NCBI RefSeq assembly: GCF_006704125.1
Contig: NZ_VIGH01000002.1
Coordinates: 310,001 to 374,000, forward strand
Length of the DNA: 64,000 bases
Direction of reading: 5' to 3'
Source: Rhodococcus spelaei
Lineage (GTDB): Bacteria > Actinomycetota > Actinomycetes > Mycobacteriales > Mycobacteriaceae
Shown here: in pieces, positions 7,535-23,985 of the stretch
How the letters are laid out: the number at the start of each line of letters is the position of its first letter
Numbering within the stretch: position 1 is the stretch's first letter
The notes under the pieces: model-generated
Seen by the model: only the letters and a program-made list of their open reading frames with translations
Database searches by the model: none
What the model was told of the DNA's origin: nothing
Made by a program: the position numbers and the translations under genes

Positions 7535-10012
7535 CTAGAGCTTGATCATGGGAACGCCGCCGATCAGCATCAGGCGGACCTTCCCCGCGGACCCGAAATC
7601 CACGGTCACCGTTGCCGTCGGCCCGGTCCCCTTGGTCTCGAGCACCGTGCCCAGGCCGTACTTGTCGTGACTGACGCGGTCACCGACGGCGAGCACCAGG
7701 TGGTTGTTGCGCGCCTTCGGCGCGCCGAAGCTGGGAGTCGACGCTCCCCCACCCGATCCGGCACCGTATCCACCGCCGCTGCCGTAGCCTCCGCCGTAGC
7801 CGCGACCGCCACGGTCCCGACCGCCGCCGATCGCGCCACCGCCCGGGCCCGGGTCTTCTCGGCGCCAGTGCAGCAGGTCGGACGGAATCTCCTGCAGGAA
7901 ACGCGATTCCGGATTGGTGATCGGCTGGCCCCAGGCCGAGCGCAACACCGCGCGGGTGACGTAGAGCCGGTGCCGGGCCCGGGTGATGCCGACGTAGGCC
8001 AGGCGCCGTTCCTCCGACAGTTCAGCGGGATCGCCGAGTGCGCGCATGTGCGGGAACTGGCCGTCCTCCCAGCCCGTCACGAACACCACCGGGAACTCGA
8101 GGCCTTTCGCGGTGTGCAGGGTCATCAGGGTGACCACGCCGTCGCCGTTGTCCGGCAACTGGTCCGAGTCCGCCACCAGCGACACCCGCTCCAGGAACGC
8201 GGCCAGCGAACCCGGATCCGGTTCGCCCTCACCGGGATTGGTGTCGTCCTCGTCTGCGGCCGCCAGCGCACCCTCGAGGCCCTCGTCCACCTCGTCCTCG
8301 ATGCCCGCGGCGTTGCGTGCGTCGGAACTGAATTCGCGGGCGACGCTGACCAACTCGTTGAGGTTGTCCAGCCGCGCGCCGTCCTGCGGATCGCTGCTGG
8401 CCTCGAGTTCGGCGCGGTAGCCGGTCTTGTCGAGCACCGCCTCGACCACCTCGCCGATGTCGATCAGCCCGGTCCCCTCGGGCTGGGCCTCGGGCGGTGT
8501 CCCCTCGGGCTGCATGCTCGAGCGGATCTCGTCCATCATCTCCGCGAACGCAGCGATCGCCTTCTGCGACCGGGTGTTCAGCAGCGGAACGGTGCCCGCG
8601 GCCGCGTCACGCAGGGCCGCGGCGAACCCGATACCGCGCTGCTCCGAGTGCACGGCGACGCAGGCCTCGGCGCGGTCGCCGATGCCGCGTCGCGGGGTGT
8701 TGAGGATGCGGCGCAGGCTCACCGTGTCGTCGGGGTTCGCCAGCACCCGCAGGTACGCGACGATGTCGCGGACCTCCTTGCGCTCGTAGAACCGCACCCC
8801 GCCGACCACCTTGTAGGGCAGGCCGAGCCGGATGAAGATCTCCTCGAGCGCCCGCGAGGAGTTGTTGGTCCGGTAGAACACCGCGACGTCGCCGAACTTC
8901 GCGTCACCGTTGTCGACGAGCCTGTCGATCTCCGAGGCCACGAACGATGCTTCGTCGTGCTCGTTGTCGGCGACGTAGCCGGTGATCAGCTCGCCCTCGC
9001 CGGAGTCCGTCCACAGCCTCTTCTCGCGGCGGCCGGTGTTTCGGGAGATCACCGCGTTGGCGGCCGAGAGGATGTTCTGGGTGGAGCGGTAGTTCTGCTC
9101 GAGCAGGATGGTCCGGGCGTCCGGATAGTCGCGCTCGAATTCCTCGATGTTGCGGATCGTCGCGCCGCGGAAGGCGTAGATGGACTGGTCCGCGTCGCCG
9201 ACCACGCACAGTTCCGACGGCGGGACCGGCCCCTGCCCCTCGTCGCCGACCAGGGTGCGTACCAGTACGTACTGCGCGTGGTTGGTGTCCTGGTACTCGT
9301 CGACAAGCACGTGCCGGAACCGGCGCCGGTAGTACTCGGCCACCTGCGGGTGAGCCTGCAGCAATGCCACCGTCTCGCCGATCAGGTCGTCGAAGTCCAT
9401 CGCATTGGCCGCGCGCAGCCGCGCCTGGTAGTGGCCGAACACCTTCGCCACCAGCCGGACCAGCTCGTTCGGGGCCTTGTCGGCGTCCGCCGCGGCCTGC
9501 TCCGGCCCGACCAACTCGTTCTTGAGGTTCGAGATGTGGGTGGCCAGCAGTCGTGCCGAGTATCGCTTGACGTCGATCTCGAGGTCCTTGGAGATCATCG
9601 TCAGCAGCCGGCGCGAATCGTCCGCGTCGTAGATGGTGAAGTTCGAGTTCAGTCCCGGCAGCAGCGCCGCCTGCATCCGCAGGATCCGCACGCAGCTCGA
9701 GTGGAAGGTCGAGACCCACATGTTGTTCGCGCGCGGGCCCACCAGTTGCGCGACCCGCTCTCGCATCTCCGCGGCGGCCTTGTTGGTGAACGTGATGGCC
9801 AGGATCTGGCCGGGCGAGACGTCACGCTCGGCGAGCAGGTACGCGATCCGGCGGGTGAGCACCGCGGTCTTGCCGGATCCGGCACCCGCCACGATCAGAA
9901 GCGGAGAGCCGGTGTGCACGACCGCCTCGCGCTGCTGCGGATTCAGTCCGTCGAGAAGTGCGGCCGAGGACGTGCGGGCACCCGCGTGAGCTGCTGCTGA
10001 GAATGTGTTCAT
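7535..10012 (-). CDS. pcrA: ATP-dependent 3'-5' DNA helicase PcrA/UvrD
   Basis: The product has 825 residues, the size of actinobacterial UvrD1/PcrA. It unwinds DNA in nucleotide excision repair and resolves replication-blocking structures. Superfamily I motifs are clear: Walker A GAGSGKTAVLTRR near 45-57, motif Ia TFTNKAA, Walker B VDEYQDTN, motif III GDADQSIYAFRGA, motif IV QNYRS, motif V TLHTAKGLEF and motif VI AYVGITRA. After the helicase core the C-terminus is a glycine/tyrosine-rich linker (about 715-765) followed by a small domain (GDRVSHDKYGLGTVLE), the RNA-polymerase-interacting tudor-like region of PcrA. It is convergent with the small secreted gene and divergent from the chorismate mutase leader. 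Confidence 0.96.
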   Translation of the reverse strand: MNTFSAAAHAGARTSSAALLDGLNPQQREAVVHTGSPLLIVAGAGSGKTAVLTRRIAYLLAERDVSPGQILAITFTNKAAAEMRERVAQLVGPRANNMWVSTFHSSCVRILRMQAALLPGLNSNFTIYDADDSRRLLTMISKDLEIDVKRYSARLLATHISNLKNELVGPEQAAADADKAPNELVRLVAKVFGHYQARLRAANAMDFDDLIGETVALLQAHPQVAEYYRRRFRHVLVDEYQDTNHAQYVLVRTLVGDEGQGPVPPSELCVVGDADQSIYAFRGATIRNIEEFERDYPDARTILLEQNYRSTQNILSAANAVISRNTGRREKRLWTDSGEGELITGYVADNEHDEASFVASEIDRLVDNGDAKFGDVAVFYRTNNSSRALEEIFIRLGLPYKVVGGVRFYERKEVRDIVAYLRVLANPDDTVSLRRILNTPRRGIGDRAEACVAVHSEQRGIGFAAALRDAAAGTVPLLNTRSQKAIAAFAEMMDEIRSSMQPEGTPPEAQPEGTGLIDIGEVVEAVLDKTGYRAELEASSDPQDGARLDNLNELVSVAREFSSDARNAAGIEDEVDEGLEGALAAADEDDTNPGEGEPDPGSLAAFLERVSLVADSDQLPDNGDGVVTLMTLHTAKGLEFPVVFVTGWEDGQFPHMRALGDPAELSEERRLAYVGITRARHRLYVTRAVLRSAWGQPITNPESRFLQEIPSDLLHWRREDPGPGGGAIGGGRDRGGRGYGGGYGSGGGYGAGSGGGASTPSFGAPKARNNHLVLAVGDRVSHDKYGLGTVLETKGTGPTATVTVDFGSAGKVRLMLIGGVPMIKL

Positions 10013-10117
10013 CGCATCCCAACGCTACCGCCGGGCACCGACAGTGATGCCCCCGGCCGTGGCCCGACCAGGCACCCGACCGTGGCTGGACGTCGCGGTC
10101 CGTGGCAAACTGGAATC

Positions 10118-10189
10118 ATGCTCAGTGTCGACCCTCGCCAGAGCTGGCGATTTTTCTACGGGTACCGGACTCCGGTGCCCGTGGCCTGA
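10118..10189 (+). CDS. Aromatic-rich leader peptide upstream of chorismate mutase (candidate attenuator)
   Basis: A 23-codon frame opens with ATG at 10118 and stops with TGA at 10187-10189. Codons 10-16 read Trp-Arg-Phe-Phe-Tyr-Gly-Tyr, so five of seven consecutive codons are aromatic. A hairpin (GGTACCGGA 10161-10169 with TCCGGTGCC 10171-10179) overlaps the second Tyr codon, and a terminator hairpin with five T residues follows at 10200-10235, before the chorismate mutase gene. This is the architecture of ribosome-mediated attenuation in pheA-type leaders: stalling at scarce Phe/Tyr codons would change RNA folding and permit read-through. There is no strong Shine-Dalgarno, so the peptide may be translated from a leaderless transcript. 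The peptide frame and hairpins are seen; the regulatory role is inferred. Confidence 0.7.
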   Translation: MLSVDPRQSWRFFYGYRTPVPVA

Positions 10190-10199
10190 ACATCCCACG

Positions 10200-10235
10200 A
10201 GCCCCGCGGTCCGCTTCAGCGATCCGGGGCTTTTT
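10200..10235 (+). terminator. Rho-independent terminator of the aromatic leader
   Basis: AGCCCC at 10200-10205 pairs with GGGGCT at 10226-10231 (the G-C pair 10206/10225 extends it), and TTTTT covers 10231-10235. A run of U after a GC stem is rare in this genome's other hairpins, which marks it as a genuine intrinsic terminator. It lies 76 bp before the chorismate mutase start. Confidence 0.8.
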
Positions 10236-10310
10236 CGTGAGAAGGGCCTGGATCGGGTAACGACCCGCGGGACCGAAAACGATCCACAGAATTGACACGA
10301 GGAGAAGTAC

Positions 10311-10637
10311 ATGGGCGCCCACACTTCGCCGAACGACGCTTCGAACGAGGCAACCCCGGCCGAGGCCACGGCCGCTACCGACCTGCCCGCCAGCGAGGCC
10401 GAGATCAACGAGCTCCGCAAGGAGATCGACCGGCTCGACGCCGAGATCCTGGCCGCGATCAAGCGGCGCAGCGAGGTCTCGCAGATCATCGGCCGCACCC
10501 GGATGGCGTCGGGCGGACCGCGACTGGTGCACAGCCGGGAGATGAAGGTCCTCGAGCGCTTCAGCGACCTCGGCCAGGAGGGCCACACCCTGGCCATGCT
10601 GCTGCTGCGCCTCGGCCGCGGCCGGCTGGGGCGCTGA
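10311..10637 (+). CDS. Chorismate mutase, short actinobacterial AroQ type
   Basis: The product has 108 residues and converts chorismate to prephenate, the committed step to Phe and Tyr. After an Ala/Thr-rich leader (about 1-30) comes the all-helical AroQ domain: EINELRKEIDRLDAEILAAIKRRSEVSQIIG (split here only by eye), then RLVHSREMKVLERF and a C-terminal helix ending RLGRGRLGR. That end is like M. tuberculosis Rv0948c, which is a poor enzyme alone and is activated by complex formation with DAHP synthase through its C-terminus. The ATG follows AGGAGAAG. It is divergent from pcrA as in mycobacteria and is preceded by a candidate attenuator. Confidence 0.93.
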   Translation: MGAHTSPNDASNEATPAEATAATDLPASEAEINELRKEIDRLDAEILAAIKRRSEVSQIIGRTRMASGGPRLVHSREMKVLERFSDLGQEGHTLAMLLLRLGRGRLGR

Positions 10638-10714: not shown

Positions 10715-10845
10715 ACTGCCGATATACGGTGACCACGGCCGTCCGTGCGGCCACGGTCGGCGAGGGAACCCGGTGCGATTCCGGGACTGACGCGCAACGG
10801 TAACGGTCCTGTCCAGGAGCGAAGTCCGAATGCTCGCCGATCGAG
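10715..10845 (+). promoter_or_regulatory. Cobalamin riboswitch upstream of the permease gene
   Basis: The plus strand contains the conserved series GAGGGAACCCGGTG, GATTCCGGGACTGACGC, GCAACGGT and AGTCCGAATGCTCGCC in the order and spacing of the cobalamin (B12-box) riboswitch, beginning after an ACGGTGACC element near 10725. It ends about 50 bp before the BtuC-like start. Adenosylcobalamin binding is expected to repress the transporter. Boundaries are approximate. Confidence 0.9.
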
Positions 10846-10898
10846 TTCGGTGACATTCCGGCCCCGCGACTGGGCCCTGGACCAGGAGTTACCGCTTC

Positions 10899-23754: not shown

Positions 23755-23985
23755 CGGGCACGGCGTGCCCGGCGCAGACGGCAGGTCTTCGGACTCGCGG
23801 GCACCGGGTTCTCACCCGACCTACTGGCCGTCGCTTCCCAGGCTGGGCGCCCAGTGCTGATGACGGCGGTCGTTCCTGCATACCGCTGCGGGACAGTCCC
23901 GGATTCTCACCGGGTTCCCTCTCACCCCTCGGACACGTCCGAGGCGCTTCGACGCCGCGCCCGACCTTCGGGGCTCCTCACGATC
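23755..23985 (-). promoter_or_regulatory. Cobalamin riboswitch upstream of metE
   Basis: On the minus strand: GTGAGAGGGAACCCGGTGAG, AATCCGGGACTGTCCCGCAG, CGGTATGCAGGAACGACCGC, then a long insert with a second AGGTCGGGTGAGAACCCGGTG and GAGTCCGAAGACCTGCC, matching the conserved core of the cobalamin riboswitch with a peripheral extension. It ends about 145 bp before metE. Approximate limits. Confidence 0.92.

Follow-up and report, generated by a model that had tools for sequence, protein, structure and literature searches.

Aromatic leader peptides are known to control chorismate mutase in Escherichia coli, where pheL-pheA is a Phe leader attenuator of the bifunctional chorismate mutase-prephenate dehydratase (PMC11802643). 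In Corynebacterium glutamicum, a leader carrying Phe-Tyr-Phe, aroR, precedes the DAHP synthase gene aroF, which is induced on Phe limitation (Neshat et al. 2014, as described in PMC11802643). Within the Mycobacteriales, ilvB leader attenuators are known in Corynebacterium and Mycobacterium (PMC5784534, PMC13236596), and that of C. diphtheriae is leaderless (PMC5784534). In M. tuberculosis, attenuators have also been linked, through ilvB1, to side-effects that rifampicin-resistance mutations carry (PMC13236596). Polycysteine leaderless short ORFs have been reported as mycobacterial attenuators (Canestrari 2020, as cited in PMC9094748), with candidate ORFs listed in PMC4633059; no conserved terminator was seen at the mycobacterial cys operons (PMC1262725). 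In Actinobacteria, a survey published in 2005 saw no conserved RNA structures ahead of the genes for Phe or Tyr (PMC1262725). The short Rv0948c-type chorismate mutase itself gains activity in its complex with DAHP synthase, according to PMC4281200.

The element described here lies upstream of such a chorismate mutase in Rhodococcus spelaei, within a window of 64,000 nucleotides (contig NZ_VIGH01000002.1, positions 310,001 to 374,000; all coordinates below are those of the window). It shares with pheL-pheA the aromatic leader peptide, the terminator/antiterminator switch and a chorismate mutase target, but the target is a monofunctional AroQ-type enzyme, the start appears to be leaderless and the control codons are a mixture of Phe and Tyr. 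As described in the source cited above, aroR-aroF is likewise an actinobacterial Phe/Tyr leader in the aromatic pathway, but there it is DAHP synthase that is controlled. The ilvB leaders combine a leader peptide with an intrinsic terminator within the same order, for branched-chain amino acids and another gene. The Cys-rich ORFs resemble this leader in being conserved, leaderless and rich in codons of the pathway, Cys codons in their case. No Rfam family matched positions 9900-10400 at E values up to 1. The literature yielded no report of attenuation before an Rv0948c-type chorismate mutase, nor the peptide motif in text (supplementary tables, subscription papers and preprints lay outside the scope, and an unlabelled Ribo-seq entry may exist). 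The comparative sequence data point to a real and conserved Phe/Tyr attenuator of a kind already known from pheL-pheA and aroR-aroF, for which member we found no earlier description.

The leader ORF and the regulated gene

The following features were located, all on the forward strand:

10106-10111 (+), −10 element CAAACT of the upstream promoter P1, with the ATG 6 nt further on
10118-10189 (+), leader peptide ORF, MLSVDPRQSWRFFYGYRTPVPVA*, 23 codons and TGA
10151-10159 and 10163-10165 (+), control codons TTT TTC TAC and TAC in the leader ORF
10300-10304 (+), Shine-Dalgarno sequence AGGAG of the chorismate mutase gene
10311-10637 (+), regulated gene, short AroQ-type (Rv0948c-type) chorismate mutase of 108 aa (NCBIfam PRK07857/TIGR01808; PDB relatives 2qbv and 6ygt)

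The 23-codon frame with Trp-Arg-Phe-Phe-Tyr-Gly-Tyr, on which the original prediction was built, reads as stated, the run starting at W10. Among 41 leaderless-type short ORFs in the window, this leader is the only one with at least five F/Y/W in nine codons. Chance rates were computed on the same 64 kb, and 30 Markov-shuffled windows contained zero ORFs of such aromatic density. Since the start codon follows the P1 −10 element by 6 nt, the leader is probably translated leaderlessly, as had been suspected. A scan for leaderless short ORFs before the class II DAHP synthase, the prephenate dehydratase and four chorismate-binding enzymes gave no aromatic run.

The gene upstream of the leader encodes a PcrA-type helicase on the minus strand and is divergent. 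Two cobalamin riboswitches (Rfam RF00174) were also observed in the window, at 10723-10876 (+) and 23763-23954 (−). The former closely follows the chorismate mutase and precedes a gene for an ABC permease of the BtuC/Fe-siderophore/F420-0 type.

Three mutually exclusive helices

Folding of the leader region gave three helices, all on the forward strand:

10158-10182 (+), helix 1:2, anti-antiterminator, arms 10158-10168 and 10172-10182, −20.0 kcal/mol, z −5.0
10167-10212 (+), helix 2:3, antiterminator, arms 10167-10184 and 10195-10212, −21.2 kcal/mol
10199-10235 (+), helix 3:4, intrinsic terminator, −20.9 kcal/mol, hairpin end at 10230 and U tract TTTTT at 10231-10235

The three are mutually exclusive and near-equal in energy. 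Helix 2:3, in which GGACU.CGG.GC.CGUGG pairs with CCACG.GC.CCG.GGUCC, is incompatible with both helix 1:2 and the terminator. The region 10119-10240 as a whole folds 4.4 standard deviations below its dinucleotide shuffles. TTT TTC TAC leads up to arm 1 and reaches into its foot, and the stop codon immediately follows arm 2. The hairpin that had been proposed to overlap the last Tyr codon in fact overlaps both (TAC 10157-10159 and 10163-10165), and the proposed terminator does end in a genuine U tract, 75 nt short of the ATG (10311) of the chorismate mutase. The claim that all pieces of an attenuator are present in order held for the ORF, the hairpin and the terminator; the antiterminator was missing from that first list, yet it is present as helix 2:3.

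Control codons at arm 1 and a stop codon after arm 2 make up the trpL/pheL layout. Attenuators of this type have a short ORF with end-product codons between promoter and gene, an intrinsic terminator before the structural gene, an antiterminator that excludes this terminator, and control codons just 5′ of the stem with a stop beside arm 2. All four are recognizable here from the sequences: F/Y codons, in frame at all fitting loci; the terminator of helix 3:4; helix 2:3, with two compensated pairs; and an F/Y codon always ahead of the stem, with the stop at +39, +45 or +48.

Conservation and covariation

Chorismate mutase loci were collected by protein, and 13 Rhodococcus sequences were aligned (alignment A1) to build the covariance model R1. 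At an E value of 0.01, R1 matched in 103 of 401 family genomes, the weaker matches including false ones; at 33 bits or more it matched in 83 of the 401, counted among the matches listed. When matches above 33 bits were followed downstream, the chorismate mutase came next in every case. Among the regions followed up, all genus-g29 matches, plus the g12, g18 and strong Rhodococcus-type matches, lie directly before it. Matches with no chorismate mutase nearby stayed below 33 bits and resemble ordinary hairpins or terminators. R. spelaei itself has a single credible R1 site and, among leaderless short ORFs before the aromatic-pathway genes named above, no aromatic run; on these grounds reuse of the element before other genes was rejected.

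The original prediction had named a lack of conservation of the aromatic codons or the terminator in relatives as one outcome that would refute it. Both are conserved in Rhodococcus sensu lato and, at an E value of 1e-4, 241 of the 297 genomes in a genus that we infer, in part from its size, to be Mycobacterium gave an R1 match. Chorismate mutases of this genus share up to 93% identity with the Rv0948c sequence and carry an MRPEP..HENAE N-terminus, which we take to resemble that of annotated Rv0948c. M. tuberculosis itself was not among the chorismate mutase matches listed, where the best identity was 93%. R1 had no credible match in what we take to be Corynebacterium, the weak ones scoring below 26 bits. 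Conservation on this scale rejects an accident at a single site. The expected conservation stands as regards the covarying helices and the Phe or Tyr at the slot before stem 1; it fails in the close relatives R. oryzae, R. tukisamuensis and R. maanshanensis, which have no element.

The reading frame is conserved as well. In 85 of 87 scored loci the start codon (57 GTG, 28 ATG) lies 6 or 7 nt past a listed −10-like hexamer, which supports the leaderless start. Of the two exceptions, L200 fits by inspection with TACACT and L142 does not. At all 85 loci the start and the control codons are in frame, over ten different distances from 12 to 63 nt; where a locus offered several such starts, the one nearest the element was used. 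The first control slot, unpaired and outside the helix, is Phe in 60 and Tyr in 8 of 68 distinct peptides, with TTT to TAC changes seen, and the second is Phe in 53 of the 68. The stop codon ends 39, 45 or 48 nt past the anchor in all loci scored, i.e. beside arm 2. Trp is unlikely to be sensed: the anchor is W in only 30 of the 68 peptides and the control codons are Phe/Tyr; Trp sensing was therefore rejected. In the R. equi group few control codons are left, with F2 replaced by Pro and Y1 by Ser.

Covariation was observed in all helices. In A1 (13 sequences) compensated pairs occur in helix 1:2 at columns 14-38 (AU, GC) and 17-35 (GC, UA, AU), and in the antiterminator at columns 38-58 (UA/CG) and 40-56 (GC/AU). 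The two compensated sets share columns, so that the same changes are demanded by helices that exclude each other. In the antiterminator 92.6% of cells are paired, against 31-51% in slid controls. In A2, with 77 distinct sequences, helices 1:2 and 3:4 have both-side changes at 10 pairs against 3.2 in shuffles (0/500), in an alignment that, having been fitted to the model, is biased in its favor, and with shuffles that take no account of relatedness. The 2:3 pairing is still foldable in the Mycobacterium sequences examined, where it is built differently.

Proposed mechanism and alternative explanations

We consider it very probable that the element is a ribosome-mediated transcription attenuator that senses the charging of tRNA-Phe and tRNA-Tyr. 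RNA polymerase would start from P1, at or beside the leader ATG, and a ribosome would load on the bare 5′ end of the leader transcript. With Phe and Tyr plentiful, this ribosome would pass the FFY-Y codons and reach the stop codon beside arm 2. Arm 2 would then be unavailable to arm 3, the terminator 3:4 would form and transcription would end 75 nt before the chorismate mutase. With charged tRNA-Phe or tRNA-Tyr scarce, the ribosome would stall at the control codons and, given the usual size of a ribosome footprint, cover arm 1. Arm 2, together with some loop nucleotides, could then pair with arm 3 and keep the terminator from forming, and the enzyme that takes the first step committed to Phe and Tyr, chorismate mutase, would be made. 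The response would thus be an increase in the enzyme on Phe or Tyr limitation.

A leader that is translated and relevant, but acts on translation or via Rho in the manner of a uORF and not through the intrinsic terminator, a mode that has been considered for the Cys-rich mycobacterial leaders, is improbable, though it is the rival that fares best. Four mycobacterial loci (L187, L196, L198 and L201) keep the leader and helix 1 with the terminator deleted or truncated, and the polycysteine ORFs reported as attenuators in mycobacteria, as far as the sources cited above describe them, could be read in its favor. In most loci, however, the terminator is present and covarying and the antiterminator that excludes it is conserved; moreover, the Shine-Dalgarno sequence in the window lies about 65 nt past the terminator, outside the modelled helices.

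Taken alone, the covariation in helix 1:2 could have its cause in a DNA inverted repeat, and the long near-palindrome ACGGGTACCGG-ACT-CCGGTGCCCGT does lie just downstream of a promoter, where a transcription factor might use it as an operator and the peptide would be incidental. This explanation is very unlikely, as an operator would account neither for an ORF kept in frame at ten spacings and a Phe/Tyr codon beyond the repeat nor for the terminator and its antiterminator. In addition, the foot of helix 1:2 is rewritten in the Rhodococcus-type loci L160 and L161, whose arms differ in sequence yet stay complementary. GC-rich DNA commonly holds short ORFs and hairpins, and a simple scan expects 0.7 terminator-like sites per 2.5 kb, but a chance ORF next to the ordinary terminator of an upstream transcript is refuted by conservation in hundreds of genomes. 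The chance scans, too, came out empty, and the divergent helicase gene leaves the terminator without a co-directional gene upstream that it could serve.

If the attenuator operates as proposed, it would be a second, transcriptional layer of control over chorismate mutase in most examined mycobacteria and many rhodococci, and attenuation in the mycobacterial aromatic pathway becomes directly testable in M. smegmatis. A conserved switch at this gene would also contradict the lack of Phe/Tyr RNA control in Actinobacteria in the 2005 survey (PMC1262725).

A putative second promoter downstream of the terminator

Between the terminator and the gene a further conserved block was found:

10257-10284 (+), putative promoter P2, GTAACG-N17-CGATC, matching the ECF sigma-D consensus

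The conserved GTAACG block had been considered as an RNA hairpin, a candidate that was dropped as the block matches a sigma-D promoter. The predicted P2 motif agrees with the C. glutamicum sigma-D consensus, GTAAC(A/G) and GAT (PMC6338062). It occurs at most Rhodococcus loci, at a near-constant distance to the Shine-Dalgarno sequence. By count it was present at 42 of 43 Nocardia loci, 26 of 37 other loci and 0 of 35 Mycobacterium loci, and the reversed control gave 0. The R. spelaei genome encodes RsdA, and a P2-type motif also precedes the adjoining ECF-like sigma gene. As P2 lies downstream of the terminator, its transcripts would bypass the attenuator. The rhodococcal chorismate mutase may therefore be fed by two promoters, a housekeeping one acting via the Phe/Tyr attenuator and an ECF sigma-D one escaping it, with the attenuator alone in mycobacteria and the sigma-D promoter without an aromatic leader in Nocardia. 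On this motif-based proposal our judgment is evenly balanced. If true, stress could raise the capacity of the Phe/Tyr branch whatever the amino-acid supply.

Loss and variation of the element

The three Rhodococcus species without the element are represented by loci L002/L010 (R. tukisamuensis), L003/L011 (R. oryzae) and L005/L007 (R. maanshanensis). In the latter two the P1 motif TGGCAAACTG is kept, and the leader, the terminator and the sigma-D motif are gone; the P1 −10 region there stands directly before the Shine-Dalgarno sequence, as after one deletion. R. tukisamuensis lacks the same three features and its P1 motif is degenerate. In many mycobacteria the U tract is weak (CTCGTCTCTT). 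Since the terminator is lost in some mycobacteria and the element is absent from these three species, it is dispensable.

In Nocardia, P1 is followed by a leaderless ORF that often has 23 codons and lacks a consistent aromatic run. A consensus fold was sought among the Nocardia loci and none came out, and Nocardia was not supported as having the same attenuator. At many of these loci (among L021-L086) a different hairpin, CTGGGGGG...CCCCACCAG GTCTGTTT, follows the short ORF. In Nocardia the distance from the P1 motif and ORF to the chorismate mutase match downstream is about 130-210 nt.
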